A stretch of DNA of 21,098 nucleotides, from positions 1 through 21,098 of IMG/VR virus record IMGVR_UViG_3300010354_000831; one strand, 5' to 3'. Of the stretch, positions 1,542-20,043 are shown piece by piece (the stretch's first letter is position 1; every line of letters begins with the position of its first letter). The DNA is from a virus. The notes beneath the pieces are model-generated. The model worked only from the letters and a program-made list of their open reading frames with translations, ran no database searches and was not told where the DNA came from. The position numbers and the translations under genes are program-made.

Positions 1542-4500
1542 TTAAACAATATAGTTTGTATATTTTAATGATGAAGTCCTATTCACAAGTCCAGAAGTTG
1601 TAATTCCAGTCACACCATTATTCCCATAGAAAGAGAATTGGTTATTTTCAGTTCTGTATTTCAGATTAATTTTACCCCAACTAAAGTTTCCAATGAAATT
1701 GGATGTTGTAATTCCAATATACGTCGAGAAACCACTTACCCTAGCGTGTATCCTTCTTACTACAGTAGATCCTATACCAATAATATTTGTCTGAACATCA
1801 GAAACAGTATCAACTTGATAAACGCAATCATAAAATTGTGTCGCTATTCCAATAGTCACGTTATTAGTATCTTTGGAAGTTAGATTAGTAGTTCCGACAC
1901 CAACATTGGAATTATAAACTATGAAGTAGTCTCCAGAATTTAAGGAACTTAAAGTAACTGCTGATCCAACTAAAGAAGAATCCCTCAAATAAGAATCGAA
2001 TGGAATGTGCAAGTCAAAAATAACTTTATCAATCGAAGAGATATTAGTTAAACCAAATCCAACCACTACTCCAGAATCTCCGGCATAACTATCAACAGGG
2101 TTAATTTCTGAAATTAAAGATGGTGATTCTATAAGAACATTTGGTGGATTTGTAGAGGTATATCCAGTTCCTGGGTAGGATACTGTAATGGAGGTTACAA
2201 TACCAGAAAATACAGTTGCAATTCCAGAAGCTCTTTGTGTTGTTCCTAGTCCAACTGGATTCTCAAAAACTACATTAGGTGAATTAATATATCCATATCC
2301 ACCGGACGTTATAGAAACGGAAGTAATTGTTCCTGCCGATGATACAATACAAGTAGCAGACGCTGAAACTATTGTGTCTTGAGAAATTAAAGTTACTTCA
2401 TTTTGGAAAGAAAGATTGGTGTTATTTTCTGTTTTTGCATCAAAGAAAGGTCTCAAATTATCAACATAAACTGTAGTAGATCCAACACCAACTGACTGAA
2501 TTAAATATGCTGATGGATAGATTGATGCCTCATATAACATTCTATCTTTTCCAACTTCTTTTTCATTGATAATCTTATCTTCAGTTTGTCTACACCAAGA
2601 TACTGGTCTTTCTAAAGTAGCATCGTCAGTATTTCCTGGTCCAAAATATGGATTAGTCAATACAAAATCTGTAGATTCGATGGAAGTCACTGTTCTTGGA
2701 TTTTCTAGTAGAATTGGGGTTTGTCCAAGAGATGAATCATAAGTAATTGTCAATTCATCTCCAATCTTAACAGTTTCTAAAATATCCCTATACAAGACAT
2801 CTAGAGAACCACTTCCTCTATAGAAAATAATCTTACAAGTATCTTCAATTTGAGGAGGTTCTGTGAAATCTATAGAACTTCCTCCATCAAAGACATATCC
2901 TTTACCGGGAACTTGTAAAATATCATTTACAAAAACCAATAAGGTGTCCTGAATATTAATAAGAGATCCCTTTGCTGCAACAATAGAAGTTAAGTTTCCT
3001 TGATATTTTAGTGGGAAAGATAGTCTTTCGCCGTCAAATAAACTTTCAATTTGATCCAATACTAAAAGTTCTCCAATAGACCATCCATTAAACTTATCAT
3101 TAAAAGTCTTTTGAATAGAGATTTGAAACTCTGAGAATGATGACAATGTGGGTATACCAACAATGTTTCCAACAGGAACTGTTAATAGTTCACCCTGCCC
3201 ATATCCATAACCAAGATTTTTGATTTCAAAATCAATTATACTTGATCCCTGCCCAACAACTATATCTATAGTTGCCTCTGTTCCAAACCCAGGAGTAGAA
3301 CTAGAACTATAAACTAAAGGAATATCCGAATATGACAGCGGTGCATCAATAAAGACTGTGGGTGGATTCGATGAAGTATATCCAAATCCTGGATTAGTGA
3401 TTGCAATACTCACAATACTTCCATTACTTACTGCTGCTGTTCCTATGAAGTGAATGTTTGGAGTTCCTAATGATGATGTAATTACCCCAACTCTTACGGG
3501 AACTGAACTAATTCCACCTGAGGTATAAATTCCCGATCTATATCCAGATCCACTGTTTCCAATACTAATTGACTGAATAGTTCCCGCAGTAGATACAATA
3601 GCAGTTCCACCGGCAGAAACTAAAGGTTGATATCCAAATCCTTCTGTAGATCCGACAGAAACAATTATTCCGCCACGAGGAACGGAAGATGTGTTGACAT
3701 CGTATGGGGCAGAATTAGCTGCTCCAACAAATGTAATTGAAGTGATGCCAGTAGATTCTGATAAAGTGTAGTTATTTGTTAATCCTGGCTCTTGGAATAT
3801 ATCATTTATCAATATGACAGCATTTTCAGTGGACACTCCAGAAACATTTGCACTATTTTGTTTGAGTGTAAAATAATTTTTTGTCGCGTTAAATTGCTCT
3901 GAAATACTATCATAAACATAATTTTTATAATATGTGTGATTTACTCCTCCGGTTTCTCCAGATCTTATAAAACTTCTTCCTTGGAAAGAGGAACTTGTCG
4001 ATATTCCGGACCAGTCTCTTTCGTCTGGTGGATTAGTTGTTGAACTAAATGGCAGTCTTCCATAAGGAGCATCTGCAAAATAAATTATATTATCCACAAT
4101 ATTGTAATTGCCAGAAATTTTTGTAACAAGAGATCCTGTTGAATGTCCAGAGACAACTGTTCCTAATTCTGGTCTACGTACTCTAATCGCATTAGTGCTT
4201 CCAATTCCGATAGAATCAATCCTCATAATTTCGTCATCAATCTTGATCAAATCTCCACCGAAGAATGAAGATATTCCAGTTAGGTAAAGAACATCTTCGG
4301 TGGTAAATAGCCTTGTTGATAGTGAAGAAGTTAGAGCACTTGAAACAACAGGTGATTGAATTACATTATCAATAGCTACAACAACTCTTGAATTTTGATT
4401 TGTTGAAGTAAATGAATGTGATGTGCCAACACCAACAACTCCAGTAAAATCTAAAACATTAGGGACAATCTTGAGGGAATCTTCTGCACTCTTTGATAAT

Positions 4501-7500
4501 TTAATTGTGTTTTGGTCAACTTTTACAATATAAACTGTTGATGGAAGTCTATCCGTAGTTCCAATACCAACTCCAAAATCAGTCGATGTAATTTGGAGTG
4601 CCATTGTCGAACCAACACCGGGAGGAGTGTAAATTACTTTTTCACCAGTTACAAAGAAATGGTTTGGTATTGTTATAGTATTATTTGTAACATTTACAAT
4701 AGACGAACTACTTCCATTAAAACTCCTTGTGAATATTGGATTATTTTTATGATTTAGATTGAAGGATCTCTTTACATCCCTATCTGTTCCATAGTAGAAA
4801 GCAGAATTCGTTTCTATTGTTGCGTTATTAAAACTTACAACATCTCTATCATCATCAATATGAATGATTGCGTTTGTATATACATTAACAACAGTATCAA
4901 TATTCGCAATTGGAGTAAATGTTAATTGAGTAGAATTTGCTGTCCTTTCGATTCCAATAGTGCCAATTCCAGAATAAGTTTCTAAATTAGCAAATTCAGC
5001 AAAATATGCATCTCCTGTATTTGTAACTGATAATACTTCCGACAATTGATGTCTATTGTTGGTAATATCAGAGACCTGAACTATGAAATATGCACAATCA
5101 TATCCATTAAAATACTCCGATATAACATTAGATGATGGGGAAGTTGTTGATGCAATAGAAGTTGATCTTGATTCAAGGTACGCATGTTTCATGAAAATCG
5201 TAGTAATCCCTGCAGATGAAGAATCAGCAATTGCAACTTGAATAGTATTAATCGTTGCCGCTACACCAACATTAGGAATGAAATCAACTTTTAAATTCGA
5301 TCCAGAAATGTATGGATAGAAAGTTCCAAATCCACTACTTGAGTAAGAATCAAAAGAATGTGTTGTAATTTGCCCATAGTCGAGGAATTCTACATTTGAC
5401 CCATCGTGAATGATATTAAATTCATTAAATTCATATTTTCCAGAATTATCTGAAATCTCCACTAAAGCCTTTAGTGATCTATAGGTGGTTCCAATTGAAA
5501 TAATAGAAGTTGATCCTGACGAAACAAAGGAATTGCTAGATCTAATCTCAGCAATATCTCCAATACTTGTGCTTCCTATTCCAGCAACAGAATCTTTTAT
5601 ATTATATGATAAGGTTGTGATATTAAAATCATTCACGGAGTATTTTTTTGGATAATACACTAAAATACCCTCATTTCCAGATATTTGAAGATCAAAAGAA
5701 CCTAAATCATACGTTGTTTCTACCCTTCCATACTGACTTAAATATCCATAGTTATTGTCATGAAGTAATGTCACTAATAATATTTGCTTTTCATCATAAT
5801 ATCTCTTGTCCTCAACATAAGTAATATATTTTCTAGCACGGGAGTCTGCTAGTAAGAATCGATCAATTTCACTGAAACGAGTTGGTCTTGGATTACTATT
5901 AAATTCAGAACTAAAATCATCTATCGACAGAACACGATTTCCGACAGATTCAAAATAATCTGTTAGAATTTTATTTTTGAACGTAATAGCATCTGATGCT
6001 ACTTTTCCATTTAATCTCAATACATTTTCTCTAACTATATCAAAATCATTAACACAATTTAAATCAACGGCACTAATTAAGTCTGCCTTTACATCAACTA
6101 TAGATGTTGATACGCCAACTTTAAGACTATTTGCACTAACTTCTGCAACAGATGGTTCGCACTGATAGTCACCAAATTTTTTAAATCCCGAAGTATGATT
6201 TAGTGTCGATACTGCATCATCCCATTTGTCATAATCTACTTTCGATCTTAATGAATATGAGAAATTTTGATAATACAAACTATCTTGAACTCTTTGCAGA
6301 TCATTATTCAAAATTCCAGTTTCAGTTTCCCAACCCTTTTCTACCTTAGTATAAGCAGAAAGATTGATAGACCCATTGAAAGATGTTATTGAAGAAGCTA
6401 ATCCTTGTGTTTTGGAAGTTTTGCCGTAAATGATTTCATTTGAATTAAATTTATCTTTTGATGATACTGAAAGATAAAGCGTCTTTGGATTCCATTCCTC
6501 AACAATACCAGTTCCAGAATTAGATGTTACTGTTTCTCCAATCAAATAATCATTAGACTTGAGAACTGGGTTGTAAATTGGTAAAAACTTTTCTGGAATT
6601 ATCCTTCCAGATGAATTAACAGGATCAAAGTTTCCTACAATTTCTCCCGAGTTTACTAACCCACTTAAACTATAAGTTACTATACCAATACCACCTCTAT
6701 TTTCTTGAACAGAAGTAAGTGTAAAAAATCTGTAATTATAGTTTTCGGAATTGAATCCTTTTCCAGTAGATCCAACTCCAACGCTTATATTTTCAATATA
6801 AACTCTATCATTGACCTTGAATGGGAATGTATCCGCTGTACTAAATCCAACGGATAAAGTTACAGTTACATTTTTGGTTGTCGAATTGTATTTAATAGAA
6901 CTAATTCCTACACCATTTGAATTTTGTGTAGGAACTATTATTGGTTTAACGTTATTAATACCATAAGAATTTTTTAATATAGTAACTTTGTCATCACCTA
7001 AAGAGTATCTCAGATCTACTTCAGGTACAAGTTTTCCAGTTTTTCCATCTAGAACAATTAATTTTGGTGGAGAAGTATATCCTCTACCCACAGAAGTTAT
7101 TCCAATAAAGTCAAAAGAGGCGAATGGCTCAATTTTTACTTCCTGAACTAAAGAAAGATTTGGTTTTAAAGTAAAATCAGTTGGAAAATCAAATCCAATA
7201 TCATTTACTTTTGTTTTTTTAATATTACCAATAGATTTACTAAAACATTCAAGTATAGATCCAGTTCCTAGTCCAGATTTAACCCCACTAATAAACGGTA
7301 ATGAATAATAATTTCTACCCCTACTCAAAATTTTAACATCAAAAATTGATCCATATGCAGAAGTTGAGTCAGTACTGTACTCCAGTTTTGATGTAGTCGA
7401 ATTATATGAAGATGATTCTGGAAAATCTCTCAGATTATAAGTAAATGATGTGCTGGATAGTGAAGTTATTTTCTGCTCGCCGTTATATCCACTAGCAATG

Positions 7501-10500
7501 AATTGAATTTCATTATTTGAAATTACGTCAGAATCAATGTTAATTTCTACTTTTTCCTGGGGGATTGTACCTTCAAAGATCGGAGTGAGTTTATAATATA
7601 ATTTTTGTGGGAAATACTTGTTTACAGTTAAAACCACTTTTGCATCGGAAGTTATTCCAACTTTTCCATACTTTTGAATATCAAAAGATCTTCTAGATTC
7701 AGTGGTTTCAAATCTTTGTGTAAATTTTTGATCTGTGTAGAATTCTAAAGAAAATGCAGAATAAATGTTTGAAAAATCTACATATGATAAAGATGAATGT
7801 GATAGATCAAATGTAACTGTAGAATCTCTGTAAATTTTTATTGGTGGATTTACTAGAGATAGAGATCCATTTGAAGCACTTGTTAGATCTACAAATTGTG
7901 GATTTGGTATAGTTGCATTATAGTATGAAGACGATAATTTTATTTCATCTTTTGTAATTGGGACGATATAGTAAATTCCATTATTCTGTAAACCACCAGA
8001 TGGTGAGCTCGCAGTGTGAATTACTTTTTGTCCAAGAGAATATCCATGATTTAAAATTGAAATAGAATTTTTAGTGATATTTACATCAGAGTTTGAGAAA
8101 TTTGTTGGATTTATGAGTAATTTTCTGTGATAATCATTATATCTGACGGTAATTGTAGTTGATATTGATGGGTTGACTTCAATATAAACATTGTCATTGT
8201 TGCTCAACCCATGAGTTTGCGCTGTGGATACAGTAACTACATTTTTTGAAATCTGACCTGTTATTCCATAATAGTTTGTTTTAAAACTGTGATAAGATCC
8301 TGTACCAATTCCGGTCAAATATAAAGGCCCATACGACCTAGTTGTGCTCGCAATGCCAACATATGTTCCTGTTGTGCCCAAACCAACCTTTACTGTAGAG
8401 ATTCCGATTAAGTCATTAGATAATTTTGCAACATATAAAGTAGACTGATCTGATAAATTAAACGAAGTTAATCCGTCTGTAGATACACCAATGGATCCAT
8501 TTCCATTAGTGTAATATGTTAGTGCGTCACCAGTCTCTAATTTGTGATCTGGAAGATATAGTGATTGTAGAGGAACAAAGATTTGGGTCGCTCCAGCACC
8601 TGGATTGGAAAATACTAAAGTCGATCCTATTCCAACTGTACCAATTCCAAGAGTTTCTTTGGGATCAAAATAAATTTCTTTATTATACCTAAATTCATAA
8701 GAAGTCTTATATCCAACATTTATATAAAGTTTTCTTGAATTTTCTGTAAATGAACTGGTAAATGTGTGAGATGCTCCGACAGTTCCATCTATAGATCTCA
8801 AAACCCGAATTCTGGATGATTTTTTGTCAATATTTAAGACCTTTACTTTTTCATTTTCTATAGAAAGAATGTCATTCTCTCTAATATTAGGGTAATTTAA
8901 GTTTCCAGAGACTGGAATGTATGTTACTATACCAGTTGATCCTACAGTTCCAAGACCTGTTGAATTGTTAAAGGCAAGAACATTAGTTACAATTTTAGAA
9001 GTATAATCACCTTTTAGGATTGATGATGCTGTGTTAATGCCCGAAAATACAATTAAGTCGCCATTATTGATATTATGCGGATTTTCCGCAAATATTACAT
9101 AAGATCCTTTATCATCCGCTGGATAAATTTCACAGTTATAGATTGAAGTGCTGGCTACACTTATCGAATCTATTTCTTTACCTTTTAATTTTGATACTTT
9201 AGCAGTTAATCCATAACCACGAGTGCCTGTTTCGTCAAAAATAATATTATCATTAACTTTATAATTAGAACCTCCAGTTACAATTCCAATATAATCAACA
9301 GATCCTGGAGATGCATATTTTACATCTACTGTTTGATTTAAATCATTTGGTAAGTTAATGTACTTATATGAATTTTGCTGTCTCAAATGATATGGTAGAG
9401 TATTTCTAACCCAATTAGTTTCATTTAAGTTAATAGCATCTTGATTTGATGATGGGTTGAAATTAAATTCATTTGGTATTGACTTATAAGTATTTCCAAT
9501 TACATACGGGAAGGTCGGTGCCTTGTATCCATTGAAAACGCCAGATGTGTCTGTTGATAGATTAAAAGTTGCGAAGTAAGCATAAACACCATTAGGAAAA
9601 TCTGGGGTTACGCAGAATCTTCCATTATGTTCATCTAAAACAGTATCATCATTTACTTGGTTATATTCAAAATCTTCAACAAAGAATCCCAATGGGAAGA
9701 CGGATGTTGGTGGTCTATTTTCTTTAATTTTAGAGATATATCCTGATTTTAATTGAGTTATGATGCCACCATCTTTTTTTGAATATCCATATGGACCATA
9801 AATTGGATTTCCATCATAAGCCCAACCAATTATTGGTGAATGGTCTACTGAGGAAACTTCAGTATTATTAACTCTTAAAAGATCTGGACTTCCATATAGA
9901 ACATTTCCATCAGCAGATAATGAATAGATGCTTTCTCTAAATTTTCTAGATGGATAAATGTGCTTATATTGCAATTCATAATCATCATTAACGCCATCAA
10001 CAATGATGCCATCATCACTTGTAAATACTGCCAAATTTTTATAAAAGTTATTGACAGTCCATTGCTTTACTTTTGGTAAAAACTTTGCTCCTTCTCCGGG
10101 AGAAATTACATTGATAAAGGTGGAACCTTGGACATATCCAATACCCCCACTAATAACTTTAATTGATTTTATTTGACCATTTTCTAAAATGGGAGTCAAA
10201 GAATCTGCAATTCCTTCACCTAGAATTTGTATTACTGGTGGAGCATAATAATTTCTACCACCACTCTTAACCAATACTTCAACAATTCTTCCATTTGAAA
10301 CAATTGGTGAAAGTTGGGCTCCAGACCCAGCATCTAGACTAATGTTGGGGTCTCTTCTGTAGTTTAAAATTTCCGAAGATCCATAATTTGATCCATTGCT
10401 GGACAAATGAACGGATTCAATACTTCCTCTGAATACTGGTAAAACTTTACACTTGAAATCATTATCAGAAACCGAAGAAATTCCAATATTTCCTACAATT

Positions 10501-13500
10501 TCAACAGATATTTCTGGATAATTAAACTTATGTACCCCAGAACCAGATGAAGTAAAACTTATATATTGTCTTGTATCATAGAAAAATGTTTGTTGTGTCG
10601 ATGCAATCCCTACCTGAGACAATCTAAAAGTATCTTTATCAATCTCCGTGATAAAATAAGTTAAATTATTTTGTAATCCCCCAACTGAAGTACCTGTAGT
10701 TGTATATTTTACAATTTCACCACTCTTAAATCCATGATTCTTTATAGTCACATACCCATTTGAGGTACTAATGCCACTAGAATTAGTAGTTACTAAATTA
10801 TTTTTATATCCGCTCCCTGAATTAGTTACATTAATAGAACCAACTACTAATTTTGTATTATACGATTTAATAGTATGATCACCCAGTCCAAATGAAGATA
10901 ATGTAATAGTGTTAATTCCAGATACTGCTTCATTAAAAGTTCTATGGAATTTAATTGTTTTGGAATCTACTGTAGAAATATAATATGCAGAATCTGTAGA
11001 AAGTCCGCCAACTCCTCTCTGCCCATTTGTTTCATAGATGACCTTTTCTGCATTCCTAAATCTATGGTAGGTACTAAACCCCACAGAAGAGTTTGATAAA
11101 TTTACAAATGATGCACTTGCAGCAGAATTGAAATCTATTTTATGATTAATTCTGGACATTGAAACCGAAGCATTTGCCCCATATCCATTGCCGCCAGTAA
11201 TTTTAACAGATGGAATTTCTGTATAATCAAATCCAGGATCAATAATTTTTATTTCTTGTAATGATCCAAGAACCGCACAATTTCCAGTAGCTCCTGTTCC
11301 AACTAAATCCGAAATAACTACTGATGGTGGATTAATTACATCATAATTTGATCCGGATGCAGTTATTTCTATTTCATCTATCGAACCATAATTGATAATA
11401 TCTTTAGATTTGTAACTTTGCAATTCAACTCCATTGATTAATAATCCAACAGATTCATTTCCGATTGGATAAGTTCCCCCATCATCTATTGTGGGTTTAA
11501 TTTCCCTAAAAAGTTTTTGTGATTTTAAAGTTTTTGATCTAAATTCATATGGTCTAATATTGTCGGAAGAAATTATAGAATCTCTTTTTAAGGTTATGAA
11601 TTTGGAATTGTAAATGTCAGATCTGCTTTTTGCAAATTTTACGTTATTTTGATCTATTCTCTTTATAAAATATAGACCCTCGCTAAATGGAGAAGTAGAA
11701 TTCCCTGGAGTGTAATAAACTGCGTCACCTGAGTAAAATCCATGATCTAAACCAGAAGATATTTTAAATGTACTTTCTCCTTCAATAAAAGTACCAGAAA
11801 AAGTTATAGATTTTATAGTTGCATTTAATGGTTGATTGCTATAAAATGGCAATGAAGAAGAGGCAATTAATGTTTTTTCCCCGTCTTTATATACATTCTG
11901 TACATTTGCGATTTCTTTAGAAAGTTGTGGAAATGTTGAAGAGCTTACCTTTGAAATATTTCTTCTTATGGTATAACTATCGGTTAGACTTAGTGGACCT
12001 TGCCCTTTAATAGAAAAAGAATTTGAAGATGAAACATTAATAATATTAGTATTTTTTTCAACACCAAAAGAATTTACTATGGTGATAATATCGCCAATGC
12101 GGAAAGAATTTGATTCTTTTGTTGTTACTGAATAAGTATCATTTGAACTGTCAATTAAACTAATAGACTTTACATTATAATTTGTTGCAATGTTATAAAA
12201 CCAATTTTTATAAACTGGATCTTTGGGGGATGTTCCTAAAGTACTAATAATAGCAGTATCTTTATCACTGGCATAATAAGTATTAGGGTCAATATTGACC
12301 TTATCTAAAACTGAAGTAATTCTTACCCTAATGATTTCATTACTATCTGAATTTGATGTTCCGTATGCATATACGTTTAATGCAATTTCGGATTGATCCA
12401 AAATATCATAAACTAACGGATCGCAATCAAAAAATTGAGTTATATTTTTTGATTTGTATTTTATAGTCCCTGTTAAACCATTATTATAAACAATGTATAA
12501 TTCCCCACTATTTGGAAAACCTACTGTTGAATCAACGTCTAGTGTTGTTGATCCTGCAAATGTAGTGTTAATTAACTTTGTTTTGGGATGAACCGAAAAA
12601 TTTCCATATAAAGATCCTTCAACTCTAATATCTTTATTGTATCCACCATCAAAACTTAACTTATAATAAGTTCTACCAGTTTTAGAATCAATTTTTTCAA
12701 CCTTAGCAATGGGTGCATATGCCTTAGAATATCCCAAAACTGCATCTTGAATTAAAGTTGATTTATATAAATTAACTGGATTTCCAGAAATACTTTCAAC
12801 GACCAAATCATTGGATACAAAATACTGAGCATCTGATGGTTTAATGAGATAGTCTTGTGGTTTAACGACCTTTACTTCTTCCCCATACAATGCATTGAAC
12901 AAAATTTCAAAAGATTTTTCAGTTCCTCTTGTTGCATAAAAATCTTTTGCATACTTTATAAACAAACTTTCATTAATTTGGTCTGAAAATTCTCTATTTT
13001 CAAATCCTGGAGTAAATTGATATTTTAATTTTGTAAGAAATTCTTTTAAGAATAAAGAACTTAAGTTTATTATTTTCGATCCGACACTATGTGATGCTGA
13101 ATTAGATGATGAAAATACTAATTCATCTGGTGAATTTTGTTTCTTATACGAGGTTACTCCAGAAAACCCTCTGATACAACCAGTAAAACTAGTGGAAGTA
13201 ATTCCAGTGTAAGTAATTATTTCATCATCAATTTGGAGTAATCCATAACTTTTTGGAAACCCAATTGTTCCTGATGGAGTTTTGGATAAATCAATAGAAA
13301 TTACATCAGAAAATTCATCAATAGATCCACTCAAGTATGCAATTTCTGATTGTGAAGAGATATTATCTAATTTTATATACTGATCAATGTTTTGAATTAA
13401 ATCTACAGGAGCACTTTGAAACTCCTGAGAAATATAGTACTGGGATAAAAATTCTACAACAAGAGGAAATTCCTCCCTCACATACAAAGGAAGTTGATTC

Positions 13501-13538
13501 TTAACAATGTTGTTAAACTGAATTCTTTTTTCTGTCAT
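1542..13538 (-). CDS. Giant virion structural protein in the gp7 position, with YHYH domain
   Basis: A single open frame of 3998 codons (roughly 430 kDa), more than half of the window. It sits where T4 has gene 7 (baseplate wedge, 1032 residues), starting 4 nt after gp6 and followed by gp8, so it is probably a hugely expanded gp7-type wedge protein; homology to T4 gp7 itself is not visible by eye. The N-terminus (QFNNIVKNQLPLYVREEFP) begins a conserved-looking head. A YHYH-type domain lies near residues 1215-1330, with IIGWAYDGNPIYGPYGYS and later FPNGVYAYFATF. Much of the rest is repeats: about seven GxGY / NPPxVxI regions (near 713-793, 905, 1033-1153, 1410-1460, 2063-2163, 3300-3453, 3723-3806), at least six NHGFxxGExVxY modules, and more than ten G-[IVL]-G-[ST]-T motifs. 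A less repetitive middle part (about 2400-2650) includes RVQDSLYYQNFSYSL and RFLLADSRARKYITY. No signal peptide or clear membrane segment is seen. It presumably sits at the baseplate periphery and may contact fibres; that is inference. Confidence 0.85.
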   Translation of the reverse strand: MTEKRIQFNNIVKNQLPLYVREEFPLVVEFLSQYYISQEFQSAPVDLIQNIDQYIKLDNISSQSEIAYLSGSIDEFSDVISIDLSKTPSGTIGFPKSYGLLQIDDEIITYTGITSTSFTGCIRGFSGVTSYKKQNSPDELVFSSSNSASHSVGSKIINLSSLFLKEFLTKLKYQFTPGFENREFSDQINESLFIKYAKDFYATRGTEKSFEILFNALYGEEVKVVKPQDYLIKPSDAQYFVSNDLVVESISGNPVNLYKSTLIQDAVLGYSKAYAPIAKVEKIDSKTGRTYYKLSFDGGYNKDIRVEGSLYGNFSVHPKTKLINTTFAGSTTLDVDSTVGFPNSGELYIVYNNGLTGTIKYKSKNITQFFDCDPLVYDILDQSEIALNVYAYGTSNSDSNEIIRVRITSVLDKVNIDPNTYYASDKDTAIISTLGTSPKDPVYKNWFYNIATNYNVKSISLIDSSNDTYSVTTKESNSFRIGDIITIVNSFGVEKNTNIINVSSSNSFSIKGQGPLSLTDSYTIRRNISKVSSSTFPQLSKEIANVQNVYKDGEKTLIASSSLPFYSNQPLNATIKSITFSGTFIEGESTFKISSGLDHGFYSGDAVYYTPGNSTSPFSEGLYFIKRIDQNNVKFAKSRSDIYNSKFITLKRDSIISSDNIRPYEFRSKTLKSQKLFREIKPTIDDGGTYPIGNESVGLLINGVELQSYKSKDIINYGSIDEIEITASGSNYDVINPPSVVISDLVGTGATGNCAVLGSLQEIKIIDPGFDYTEIPSVKITGGNGYGANASVSMSRINHKIDFNSAASASFVNLSNSSVGFSTYHRFRNAEKVIYETNGQRGVGGLSTDSAYYISTVDSKTIKFHRTFNEAVSGINTITLSSFGLGDHTIKSYNTKLVVGSINVTNSGSGYKNNLVTTNSSGISTSNGYVTIKNHGFKSGEIVKYTTTGTSVGGLQNNLTYFITEIDKDTFRLSQVGIASTQQTFFYDTRQYISFTSSGSGVHKFNYPEISVEIVGNIGISSVSDNDFKCKVLPVFRGSIESVHLSSNGSNYGSSEILNYRRDPNISLDAGSGAQLSPIVSNGRIVEVLVKSGGRNYYAPPVIQILGEGIADSLTPILENGQIKSIKVISGGIGYVQGSTFINVISPGEGAKFLPKVKQWTVNNFYKNLAVFTSDDGIIVDGVNDDYELQYKHIYPSRKFRESIYSLSADGNVLYGSPDLLRVNNTEVSSVDHSPIIGWAYDGNPIYGPYGYSKKDGGIITQLKSGYISKIKENRPPTSVFPLGFFVEDFEYNQVNDDTVLDEHNGRFCVTPDFPNGVYAYFATFNLSTDTSGVFNGYKAPTFPYVIGNTYKSIPNEFNFNPSSNQDAINLNETNWVRNTLPYHLRQQNSYKYINLPNDLNQTVDVKYASPGSVDYIGIVTGGSNYKVNDNIIFDETGTRGYGLTAKVSKLKGKEIDSISVASTSIYNCEIYPADDKGSYVIFAENPHNINNGDLIVFSGINTASSILKGDYTSKIVTNVLAFNNSTGLGTVGSTGIVTYIPVSGNLNYPNIRENDILSIENEKVKVLNIDKKSSRIRVLRSIDGTVGASHTFTSSFTENSRKLYINVGYKTSYEFRYNKEIYFDPKETLGIGTVGIGSTLVFSNPGAGATQIFVPLQSLYLPDHKLETGDALTYYTNGNGSIGVSTDGLTSFNLSDQSTLYVAKLSNDLIGISTVKVGLGTTGTYVGIASTTRSYGPLYLTGIGTGSYHSFKTNYYGITGQISKNVVTVSTAQTHGLSNNDNVYIEVNPSISTTITVRYNDYHRKLLINPTNFSNSDVNITKNSISILNHGYSLGQKVIHTASSPSGGLQNNGIYYIVPITKDEIKLSSSYYNATIPNPQFVDLTSASNGSLSLVNPPIKIYRDSTVTFDLSHSSLSYVDFSNIYSAFSLEFYTDQKFTQRFETTESRRSFDIQKYGKVGITSDAKVVLTVNKYFPQKLYYKLTPIFEGTIPQEKVEINIDSDVISNNEIQFIASGYNGEQKITSLSSTSFTYNLRDFPESSSYNSTTSKLEYSTDSTSAYGSIFDVKILSRGRNYYSLPFISGVKSGLGTGSILECFSKSIGNIKKTKVNDIGFDFPTDFTLKPNLSLVQEVKIEPFASFDFIGITSVGRGYTSPPKLIVLDGKTGKLVPEVDLRYSLGDDKVTILKNSYGINNVKPIIVPTQNSNGVGISSIKYNSTTKNVTVTLSVGFSTADTFPFKVNDRVYIENISVGVGSTGKGFNSENYNYRFFTLTSVQENRGGIGIVTYSLSGLVNSGEIVGNFDPVNSSGRIIPEKFLPIYNPVLKSNDYLIGETVTSNSGTGIVEEWNPKTLYLSVSSKDKFNSNEIIYGKTSKTQGLASSITSFNGSINLSAYTKVEKGWETETGILNNDLQRVQDSLYYQNFSYSLRSKVDYDKWDDAVSTLNHTSGFKKFGDYQCEPSVAEVSANSLKVGVSTSIVDVKADLISAVDLNCVNDFDIVRENVLRLNGKVASDAITFKNKILTDYFESVGNRVLSIDDFSSEFNSNPRPTRFSEIDRFLLADSRARKYITYVEDKRYYDEKQILLVTLLHDNNYGYLSQYGRVETTYDLGSFDLQISGNEGILVYYPKKYSVNDFNITTLSYNIKDSVAGIGSTSIGDIAEIRSSNSFVSSGSTSIISIGTTYRSLKALVEISDNSGKYEFNEFNIIHDGSNVEFLDYGQITTHSFDSYSSSGFGTFYPYISGSNLKVDFIPNVGVAATINTIQVAIADSSSAGITTIFMKHAYLESRSTSIASTTSPSSNVISEYFNGYDCAYFIVQVSDITNNRHQLSEVLSVTNTGDAYFAEFANLETYSGIGTIGIERTANSTQLTFTPIANIDTVVNVYTNAIIHIDDDRDVVSFNNATIETNSAFYYGTDRDVKRSFNLNHKNNPIFTRSFNGSSSSIVNVTNNTITIPNHFFVTGEKVIYTPPGVGSTMALQITSTDFGVGIGTTDRLPSTVYIVKVDQNTIKLSKSAEDSLKIVPNVLDFTGVVGVGTSHSFTSTNQNSRVVVAIDNVIQSPVVSSALTSSLSTRLFTTEDVLYLTGISSFFGGDLIKIDDEIMRIDSIGIGSTNAIRVRRPELGTVVSGHSTGSLVTKISGNYNIVDNIIYFADAPYGRLPFSSTTNPPDERDWSGISTSSSFQGRSFIRSGETGGVNHTYYKNYVYDSISEQFNATKNYFTLKQNSANVSGVSTENAVILINDIFQEPGLTNNYTLSESTGITSITFVGAANSAPYDVNTSSVPRGGIIVSVGSTEGFGYQPLVSAGGTAIVSTAGTIQSISIGNSGSGYRSGIYTSGGISSVPVRVGVITSSLGTPNIHFIGTAAVSNGSIVSIAITNPGFGYTSSNPPTVFIDAPLSYSDIPLVYSSSSTPGFGTEATIDIVVGQGSSIIDFEIKNLGYGYGQGELLTVPVGNIVGIPTLSSFSEFQISIQKTFNDKFNGWSIGELLVLDQIESLFDGERLSFPLKYQGNLTSIVAAKGSLINIQDTLLVFVNDILQVPGKGYVFDGGSSIDFTEPPQIEDTCKIIFYRGSGSLDVLYRDILETVKIGDELTITYDSSLGQTPILLENPRTVTSIESTDFVLTNPYFGPGNTDDATLERPVSWCRQTEDKIINEKEVGKDRMLYEASIYPSAYLIQSVGVGSTTVYVDNLRPFFDAKTENNTNLSFQNEVTLISQDTIVSASATCIVSSAGTITSVSITSGGYGYINSPNVVFENPVGLGTTQRASGIATVFSGIVTSITVSYPGTGYTSTNPPNVLIESPSLISEINPVDSYAGDSGVVVGFGLTNISSIDKVIFDLHIPFDSYLRDSSLVGSAVTLSSLNSGDYFIVYNSNVGVGTTNLTSKDTNNVTIGIATQFYDCVYQVDTVSDVQTNIIGIGSTVVRRIHARVSGFSTYIGITTSNFIGNFSWGKINLKYRTENNQFSFYGNNGVTGITTSGLVNRTSSLKYTNYIV

Positions 13539-17137: not shown

Positions 17138-17293
17138 TTAAATTTCCTCCATTTCTAATAAGTTTGGATCAATTTCATCTCCAGAAAAATAATTTTCTGA
17201 AAAGTCTTGAAGAACCTCAGTACATTCTTCTGCACTGAGGTTTGTATAAATTTTTCTTCCGTTGTATAAAATGTTATACAATTTTTCTTTCAT
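17138..17293 (-). CDS. Small protein, 51 aa, resembling the 66-aa protein at 18110-18310
   Basis: Short acidic protein beginning MKEKLYNILYNGRKIYTNLS and ending LLEMEEI. Its first 30 residues line up with the 66-aa product on the other side of the glycosyltransferase gene: both read EKLYxI...GRxIYxxL followed by a Glu-rich helix. The ATG shares its A with the TGA of the glycosyltransferase gene (TGATG), so translation is probably coupled. The gene ends 1 nt before the start of the 46-codon gene and carries that gene's ribosome site. I know of no function; the pattern EKxYHIYAKxxCxYHxL is one I associate with small cyanophage proteins. Confidence 0.78.
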   Translation of the reverse strand: MKEKLYNILYNGRKIYTNLSAEECTEVLQDFSENYFSGDEIDPNLLEMEEI

Positions 17294-18060
17294 CAGATTA
17301 CGCGAGTTTTTTCATGCCCAACTCTAATACGAGGATCGCACCAGATCTTATAACCCTGGTCAATCGCATCAAGACAGAATGAGACATCTTCCCCACACAT
17401 ATCTTGAACAGCACCAGACTCAAAAACTTGCATCTTTGGTGCAAACCAAGGATACTCAAGATTTTCAAAAACACCTTTCTTAATCAGAACCCATCCAAAA
17501 CCTGTGTAATCTACAGTAAATGGCTTACGACGCTTGCTGATCGATTCCACAGTTTCATGATTCATGACTCCACCATTCTTGCGGAAATCATCTTCTTCTA
17601 ACCAATGTGCGACAGATGTTGTGTGACCATCTTCTGTTGCATACCAACCTGCGACAATTTCACGCTCTTCACCTTCAGCAGGGAAAGACATATCACAGAG
17701 TTGCCAAAACTTGTTTGAATCAAAAACAATATCATTATCAATCCACAGTTGATAATCATACTCAAGTTTTCCATCCCAAGGAATTTGCTTCGGACCTCTC
17801 AGAACATTTGCACCAAGAACTTTACAACGTGCAAAGTTTACCATTGATGAATAATCTTGAGAAATTTGAATACTCATTCCATTCTGAACAAGATCAAAAC
17901 AGAGTTGTACAAATGCCTTCAGAAAAATATAAGAGCATCCTCGTCCTGGAAGACAGAATACAATACTCTTACCTTTCATTCTTTCTTTAATTGCACCGTA
18001 GTCCCATTCTTCAGTGTTCTTCTTTGGTGCTACGGTCTTAACAGTGAATCCTTTTGCCAT
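17293..18060 (-). CDS. Probable GT-A glycosyltransferase (family 2-like), 255 aa
   Basis: Likely transfers a sugar from a nucleotide-sugar donor; the acceptor is unknown (virion protein, host envelope, or DNA base). After a basic tail the fold opens with KSIVFCLPGRGCSY (residues 31-44). A DxD-type metal site is seen at 108-110 in QLWIDNDIVFD. An acceptor-side block DYTGFGWVLIKKGVF (184-198) and CGEDVSFCLDAIDQGYKIWC (222-241, with the catalytic-type ED) follow, and the last part, RIRVGHEKT, gives the His often needed for metal binding. This order is typical of short GT-A enzymes of phages. No membrane segment. It has its own sigma-70-like promoter immediately upstream, and a moderate GAAGG ribosome site 11 nt before the ATG. 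It overlaps the 51-codon gene by one base. The enzyme class is fairly secure, the substrate is not. Confidence 0.78.
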   Translation of the reverse strand: MAKGFTVKTVAPKKNTEEWDYGAIKERMKGKSIVFCLPGRGCSYIFLKAFVQLCFDLVQNGMSIQISQDYSSMVNFARCKVLGANVLRGPKQIPWDGKLEYDYQLWIDNDIVFDSNKFWQLCDMSFPAEGEEREIVAGWYATEDGHTTSVAHWLEEDDFRKNGGVMNHETVESISKRRKPFTVDYTGFGWVLIKKGVFENLEYPWFAPKMQVFESGAVQDMCGEDVSFCLDAIDQGYKIWCDPRIRVGHEKTRVI

Positions 18061-18084: not shown

Positions 18085-18113
18085 ATTTTATCAGTCTATA
18101 TATGCTTTGTCAA
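18085..18113 (-). promoter_or_regulatory. Sigma-70-like promoter before the glycosyltransferase gene
   Basis: On the minus strand, TTGACA (18113-18108) and TAAAAT (18090-18085) are separated by exactly 17 nt, a near-consensus host housekeeping promoter. The -35 box overlaps the last codons of the 66-codon gene. The predicted start is near 18078, giving a leader of under 20 nt before the ATG at 18060. The extended match suggests early or constitutive expression by unmodified host polymerase. Confidence 0.72.
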
Positions 18114-19526: not shown

Positions 19527-19700
19527 TCACCAACGGTCAGGTGTACTTAGGTCCTCGACGTAAGCATCACACTTCTCTGCAGGTTCCAACTTGAATAACT
19601 TCTCCCAATCAATCTGGTGGGGGTCGAAGTCACCGAACACTGATAGATCTAGAGTGATCCTATAACGCTGCTTCTGCGCTTGACTATAAGCAACTGACAT
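19527..19700 (-). CDS. Small conserved-looking protein, 57 aa
   Basis: Reads MSVAYSQAQKQRYRITLDLS, then VFGDFDPHQIDWEKLFKLEP and an acidic end (EKCDAYVEDLSTPDRW). I recall cyanophage proteins with YRITLDLSVxxDFDPxQIDWEKLF and YxEDL, all of unknown function. It looks like a small alpha/beta domain without membrane segment. The start at 19700 is supported by CGGAGCG 8 nt upstream and by a near-consensus sigma-70 promoter ending about 30 nt before it. It is the first gene of the 57-84-53-46 codon unit and the one closest to the divergent control region. Confidence 0.82.
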   Translation of the reverse strand: MSVAYSQAQKQRYRITLDLSVFGDFDPHQIDWEKLFKLEPAEKCDAYVEDLSTPDRW

Positions 19701-19728: not shown

Positions 19729-19757
19729 AGTCTAAGATGCCTGAGGATTGTTGTCAA
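19729..19757 (-). promoter_or_regulatory. Sigma-70-like promoter, leftward arm of divergent pair
   Basis: On the minus strand TTGACA (19757-19752) and TAGACT (19734-19729) with a 17-nt spacer. Predicted start near 19722, about 20 nt before the 57-codon gene. The -35 box is within TGTCAAGTCC, which is repeated inverted at the rightward promoter. Confidence 0.75.
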
Positions 19758-19760
19758 GTC

Positions 19761-19829
19761 CTGTGGGATATTTATGCGGGGTCTGTGGATTTATGCGCGG
19801 GATCTGTGGGGATTTTGTGACAGCGGGGG
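19761..19829. repeat. Three CTGTGG...GCGGGG repeats, 21-22 bp apart
   Basis: CTGTGG starts at 19761, 19783 and 19804. Each copy is followed by an AT-rich core (GATATTTATG, ATTTATG, GGATTTTGTGACA) and then a G-run (GCGGGG, GCGCGGG, GCGGGGG). The spacing is two helical turns, so a protein would contact the same face at each copy. All three lie exactly between the two divergent -35 boxes. The strand bias is strong: the plus strand is G-rich. Confidence 0.7.
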
Positions 19830-19831
19830 AC

Positions 19832-19860
19832 TTGACATTTTCGCGGGGTGCTGATACAAT
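19832..19860 (+). promoter_or_regulatory. Sigma-70-like promoter, rightward arm of divergent pair
   Basis: TTGACA (19832-19837) and TACAAT (19855-19860) with a 17-nt spacer, a near-perfect host promoter on the plus strand. No plus-strand gene follows within the window: the first ATG (in ACAATGCGG) opens only 19 codons. The transcript would start near 19867, run through the TTTTCCACA inverted repeat and the AT-rich tract, and then be antisense to the 75-codon gene. Confidence 0.72.
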
Positions 19861-19902
19861 GCGGTTAAAGATCACAAGACCTGAGCACATTAAAATCAAT
19901 AC

Positions 19903-20003
19903 TTTTCCACAATTATAACACTTTCTGTGGAAATTGTGGAAAACAATATAATCAACTCAAATACGTTTTTTAATACATTTTTAATTGATTTTTAACATAA
20001 AAA
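19903..20003. other. DnaA-box-like cluster with 12-bp inverted repeat and AT-rich tract (candidate origin)
   Basis: Three nonamers of the TTTTCCACA type occur in 41 bp: TTTTCCACA on the plus strand at 19903-19911, ATTTCCACA on the minus strand at 19926-19934 and TTTTCCACA on the minus strand at 19935-19943. The outer two extend to a perfect 12-bp inverted repeat (TTTTCCACAATT / AATTGTGGAAAA, 17-nt loop). TTTTCCACA is, as I recall, the DnaA box form reported for Synechococcus. From 19944 to about 20010 the GC content drops to roughly 15%. Together with the 343-nt gene-free setting (19701-20043) and the promoter aimed into it, this resembles an origin, or alternatively a strong regulatory RNA hairpin. 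Confidence 0.45.
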
Positions 20004-20006
20004 CAT

Positions 20007-20034
20007 AAAAAAAGAGAGGTTTTATCCCCTCTTT
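20007..20034 (-). terminator. Intrinsic terminator after the 75-codon gene
   Basis: On the minus strand AAAGAGGGG pairs with CCTCTCTTT (9 bp, one G-U), loop ATAAAA, followed directly by a run of T (seven T including the end of the stem). It starts 10 nt beyond the TGA at 20044. It would insulate the genes on its right from the divergent control region. Confidence 0.8.
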
Positions 20035-20043
20035 CAAGTATAA

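Follow-up and report, generated by a model that had tools for sequence, protein, structure and literature searches.

The window analysed here, a whole stretch of 21,098 nucleotides from one IMG/VR record, is a 21-kb fragment of a T4-like cyanophage (Kyanoviridae). It contains an element that we read, with a probability of roughly 55%, as a replication origin assisted by host DnaA and equipped with an activating or priming transcript. The promoter pair of this element, its late motif and the 5′ motif of its plus-strand transcript are conserved among relatives. About half of the genomes have pairs of DnaA boxes there, a stretch that melts easily lies next to them, and the box cluster is unique in the genome. 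Because an early promoter and a conserved start of transcription come together with repeats, DnaA boxes and this stretch at one place per genome, the element is best read as an origin. From this arrangement we infer DnaA binding, melting and initiation at the element, and priming or activation by the transcript.

On the minus strand, the window carries baseplate genes related to S-SM2 gp8, gp7, gp6 and gp25, followed by small genes that include Kyano_Gp96 (PF23790, 20469–20783) and DUF7249. An ORF survey placed all convincing genes around the element in the window on this strand, in agreement with the first-pass annotation, which had described a one-strand region. At the position of S-SM2 gp7, the baseplate wedge initiator, there is a 3998-aa ORF (1542–13538, minus strand), far longer than T4 gp7.

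The element is built around two divergent promoters. The leftward one, a sigma-70 type early promoter, occupies 19729–19757 on the minus strand, with TTGACA at 19757–19752 and TAGACT at 19734–19729. The rightward early promoter occupies 19832–19860 on the plus strand, with TTGACA at 19832–19837, TACAAT at 19855–19860 and an extended −10 (TGA; TGATACAAT; 11/12). The predicted starts are at about 19722 and 19867. Both promoters had been noticed before; they are present as described, their 17-nt spacers are exact, and they are conserved in relatives. Promoter-like matches in the region are as frequent as in shuffled sequence (23 found versus 21 ± 4), so the pattern alone proves little and conservation had to decide.

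For this purpose 80 IMG/VR loci with a neighbouring Gp96 gene were compared, together with named phages. A profile of the element matches at least 129 loci (at least 116 distinct) of T4-like cyanophages, nearly all from other phages, and a separate IMG/VR pattern scan returned at least 120 loci, with 97 fitting the profile among the matches listed. In the 116 distinct copies among the matches listed, all 114 that could be scored have a left spacer of 17 nt, the right spacer is 17 or 18 nt, the −35 boxes start 77–82 nt apart in 111, and a right −10 box is found in 93. The scan pattern prescribed −35 boxes, a late motif and a rough distance between them, and the fractions for these features are therefore partly due to selection; the spacers and −10 boxes were left free. 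Among 26 loci chosen by neighbour gene or homology instead of by pattern, the left 17-nt promoter is present in 24 and the right promoter in 21; this subset is not fully independent, because some of its loci also seeded the profile. The divergent pair is seen in S-SM2, Bellamy, SynMITS9220M01 and many contigs, and pairs with a strong left promoter also in Syn9 (where the right one is weak), S-SM1, S-SSM5 and Syn33. In the 190-kb genome of S-SM2, no other divergent TTGACA pair is less than 300 nt apart. The first-pass annotation would have been refuted by close relatives that retain the flanking genes but lack the boxes; in most close relatives the boxes had not been lost. The conservation of the pair lifts the promoter pattern beyond chance.

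The first-pass annotation had placed the −35 boxes in a perfect 10-bp inverted repeat (19752–19761 and 19828–19837, with 66 nt between the arms) and had offered, as one explanation, a switch controlled by a protein bound between the promoters. The repeat is exact in the window, but the additional 4 bp beyond TTGACA are not conserved: at least 10 bases of the arm are matched in only 9 of 27 loci, and 6 in most. The repeat is thus mostly two consensus −35 boxes facing each other. An operator palindrome between the promoters was ruled out on the same comparison, and a switch protein acting on the repeat is unsupported.

Between the promoters, a short way upstream of the leftward early one, lies a late-promoter motif, CATAAATA (T4-type NATAAATA; 19769–19776, minus strand). 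Cyanophages use NATAAATA as their late motif (PMC2984593), and the copy read from 19776 to 19769 has the start-proximal position of a T4-type late promoter, which we predict it to be. It is invariant, reading TATTTAT on the plus strand in 26 of the 26 loci not selected by pattern, and among the matches listed the minus-strand NATAAATA starts 17–18 nt from the left −35 box. This invariant motif beside the left early promoter therefore points to tandem early and late promoters directed leftward. The same interval holds two 21-nt direct repeats (GGATATTTATGCGGGGTCTGT and a 76% copy; 19766–19807, plus strand), which are only partly conserved. A 56-aa ORF (19533–19700, minus strand) would be read from the leftward promoters. 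In most relatives its ATGTC start and the left −35 box are 49–55 nt apart, and a Pfam search with the ORF gave no match. Further along the minus strand, a near-consensus early promoter with an extended −10 (TTGACA-17-TAAAAT; 18085–18113) precedes a 255-aa gene (17293–18060), and similar TTGACA-TAAAAT promoters are seen in many relatives.

To the right, we predict a non-coding plus transcript of about 170 nt (19867–20035). Its nearest boundary is a terminator-like hairpin belonging to the convergent minus-strand gene (20010–20035, minus strand). A coding transcript was ruled out, as there is no convincing plus ORF in the window or in most relatives; among the 89 loci whose sequence extends far enough, about 12 have a long plus ORF that starts just downstream. 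Downstream of the promoter, the best-conserved stretch is the 5′ end of the transcript. It carries a motif (AAGATCACAA...GCACATTAAA; 19868–19895, plus strand) that sits at the predicted plus transcription start across relatives in the form AAGATCACAA...CACATTTAAA. The motif is present as a single copy in the window and is repeated every 33–34 nt in relatives such as L009, L040, L018, L165 and L117.

Beyond this motif, an inverted repeat (TTTTCCACAATT / AATTGTGGAAAA; 19903–19943) contains two perfect DnaA boxes (19903–19911 and 19935–19943) and a near match (19926–19934). The perfect boxes read TTTTCCACA, the DnaA box of most cyanobacteria (PMC4674748), and thus form a cluster in the host consensus, as in an oriC. 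In the 400 nt that follow the plus promoter, the density of perfect boxes is about 125 times that in the rest of these loci. Of 92 elements, 25 have two or more perfect boxes in this 400-nt stretch, compared with 1 of 1465 control windows taken from the loci themselves, a difference whose Fisher value overstates the evidence because the loci are related.

A search of 25 cyanophage records, mostly complete genomes, for two perfect DnaA boxes within 30 nt found such pairs in 13 (S-SM2, S-PM2, DSL-LC02, S-CREM1, G002, G003, G005, G006, Syn9, S-SM1, S-SSM5, Syn33 and S-SZBM1). Every pair is at the locus of the element: in 12 records it is no more than about 3.1 kb away from the Gp96 gene, and in G006 it lies beside an element detected by the profile. 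No close perfect pair was found in T4, and none with reversed-pattern controls. The 12 records that have no such pair include Bellamy, SynMITS9220M01, P-SSM2, P-SSM4, S-RSM4 and S-CAM9, as well as three long contigs (G007–G009) that may not all be cyanophages. S-SM2 has three copies of TTTTCCACA in 190 kb, two of them at the element, and the sole pair of Syn9 (52565–52597) is in the element's locus. The DnaA boxes at the element are not there by chance. The third S-SM2 copy adjoins the least stable 60-mer of that genome, around the gp21/gp22 junction (GU071095, 101562–101712).

The orientation of promoter and boxes is also shared. In S-SM1, Syn33, S-CREM1, G002 and L055, a TTGACA promoter points at the boxes from about 80–130 nt away, and a promoter facing boxes recurs in divergent phages, usually together with a T-rich stretch. 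A TTGACA box in the matching position was seen by eye in S-PM2, S-SZBM1 and G005, outside the ranking of the scoring script. The element profile misses S-PM2 and S-CREM1; the box cluster and T-rich stretch are present in both, and the promoter also in S-CREM1. A second box pair lies about 0.3–0.7 kb from the first in some cases (S-CREM1 88401–88432, S-SZBM1 614–634, L055 797–847 and G005 44332–44352), and in S-CREM1 it is on the opposite side of the Gp96 gene.

Many contigs in the window's own group have another inverted repeat, of the TTCTCAATAA or the GATACGAATTCATATC type, in place of the boxes. In six that have no perfect boxes (L017, L036, L051, L058, L005 and L029), the slot holds TTCTCAATAA...TTATTGAGAA or GATACGAATTCATATC. 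By eye, TGAGAATGATTATCA in L051 looks like a Fur box (7-1-7). The replacement may mean that a different initiator is used, or that the boxes are not needed. We tentatively entertain a hybrid origin, in which a T4-style promoter transcript is combined with host DnaA boxes and the repeat that binds the initiator (DnaA-box, TTCTCAATAA or GATACGAATTCATATC type) is exchanged between lineages in a single slot; with such swapping, phages may differ in the initiator protein they use.

Next to the boxes is a T-rich array of 11–12-mers (TTTTTTAATACA, TTTTTAATTGA and TTTTTAACATA; 19961–20005), the proposed unwinding stretch. It is the fifth least stable 60-mer of the window, and the matching stretch ranks second in S-SM2, seventh in MITS9220M01 and sixth in G001. 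In S-SM2 it abuts the two DnaA boxes, and a T-rich array beside boxes is seen in the window, S-PM2 and DSL-LC02. The element thus has the adjacent low-stability stretch expected of an oriC-type origin. A switch in strand composition, a supporting rather than defining sign of such an origin, was not found at the element in S-SM2, MITS9220M01 or a 184-kb contig; the detrended GC-skew minimum is tens of kb away, and in these three genomes the element is closer to a local maximum. Among the explanations first proposed for the plus promoter, an origin transcript is favoured, because the sequence that this promoter faces is conserved, codes for no protein in most cases and contains DnaA boxes as well as an A+T-rich stretch.

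The oriE of phage T4, in the repEA/repEB region, lies among baseplate genes, with the GIY-YIG gene segC nearby; one of its strands is transcribed early and the opposite one late. It has direct-repeat iterons and an apparently early (not middle) promoter (PMC3016281), and the element likewise has an early-mode promoter (TTGACA-17-TACAAT) and, in relatives, evenly spaced direct repeats. The repeats of oriE are 12 nt, whereas those of the element are 33–34 nt and, as far as checked, have no sequence relation to them; the DnaA boxes set the element further apart from T4. At oriF and oriG, a promoter is followed by an A+T-rich unwinding element, an arrangement shared by the element, and the RNA serves as primer (PMC3016281). 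These two origins use a MotA middle promoter, which cyanophages lack (PMC2984593), and no DnaA boxes are described there in the review (PMC3016281). We consider the element reminiscent of oriE, oriF and oriG in the way it would work, and make no claim of descent from oriE. With the chromosomal oriC of cyanobacteria it shares a cluster of TTTTCCACA boxes (PMC4674748) next to an A+T-rich stretch, but it has 2–4 boxes, adjoins neither dnaA nor dnaN, and belongs to a lytic phage with its own replisome. A single theta origin has been predicted for Syn9, as cited in PMC2984593, and may correspond to the locus that holds the sole DnaA-box pair of that phage.

We propose that the RNA polymerase of the host, carrying the main sigma factor, would transcribe rightward from about 19867, across the iteron motif, the inverted DnaA-box cluster and the T-rich unwinding element. 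Host DnaA at the boxes and the transcript, through an R-loop or transcription torsion, could then open the T-rich stretch. Leading-strand synthesis by the T4-type replisome of the phage would start from the RNA, or through primase acting on the strand thus exposed. The small minus-strand genes would be served by the leftward promoter of the divergent pair and by the late NATAAATA promoter.

Several of these features could also belong to an early regulatory region that works in both directions and takes no part in replication; it would send a structured small non-coding RNA to the right and early and late mRNA to the left, the repeats and hairpin acting in RNA. The strong conservation of the transcript's 5′ end fits this reading, as does an inverted repeat that persists while its sequence class changes. 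The predicted plus RNA folds better than shuffled sequences (z −2.85), and S-PM2 has a known small antisense RNA, CfrI (PMC2984593). Promoter and folding together suggest a stable non-coding transcript of the CfrI type from the element. Both would be promoter-driven non-coding transcripts in a T4-like cyanophage, predicted in the case of the element; CfrI is antisense to psbA and a homing endonuclease gene (PMC2984593). Rfam family and tRNA searches gave no match, however, and a purely regulatory region leaves the exact, genome-unique cyanobacterial DnaA boxes and the easily melted stretch unexplained. We consider it unlikely, though the strongest of the competing accounts.

The boxes themselves might bind host DnaA for another end, disturbing host replication by titration or repressing the plus promoter rather than starting phage replication. 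They are exact and lie downstream of a promoter, and the copy number of the phage would presumably make titration effective. There are only 2–4 boxes per genome, however, and the adjacent T-rich array in the window, S-PM2 and DSL-LC02 is left without explanation, which makes this account improbable. It is more doubtful still that the plus promoter serves mainly to express a homing endonuclease gene, present downstream in some phages and absent in others. Such genes, of the GIY-YIG (six Pfam hits) or HNH (one) kind, do directly follow the element on the plus strand in L018, L184, L210, L051, L155, L211 and L139. The long plus ORFs just downstream are nevertheless confined to the minority of loci given above, and the promoter and 5′ motif are kept where such a gene is absent. 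Several of the endonuclease genes carry their own TATAAATA-type late motif; in 6 of 10 examined loci with a long plus ORF just downstream, a late motif is within about 35 nt of the start, and those loci therefore may not need an early promoter.

We found no report of the element in the open-access literature searched on DnaA boxes or replication origins in cyanophages. The replication start site in Syn9 and S-PM2, and the need for host DnaA, appear unmapped in the searchable literature. In T4, the model for the group, replication begins with RNA primers at more than one origin, and DnaA-box pairs of this kind are absent. Since the element is a conserved site of a few hundred bases present in cultured phages, the origin question is testable. 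An early, mostly non-coding transcript is predicted to be aimed at the virus's only DnaA-box cluster, and the element is probably a site at which viruses that infect photosynthetic bacteria begin to copy their DNA.
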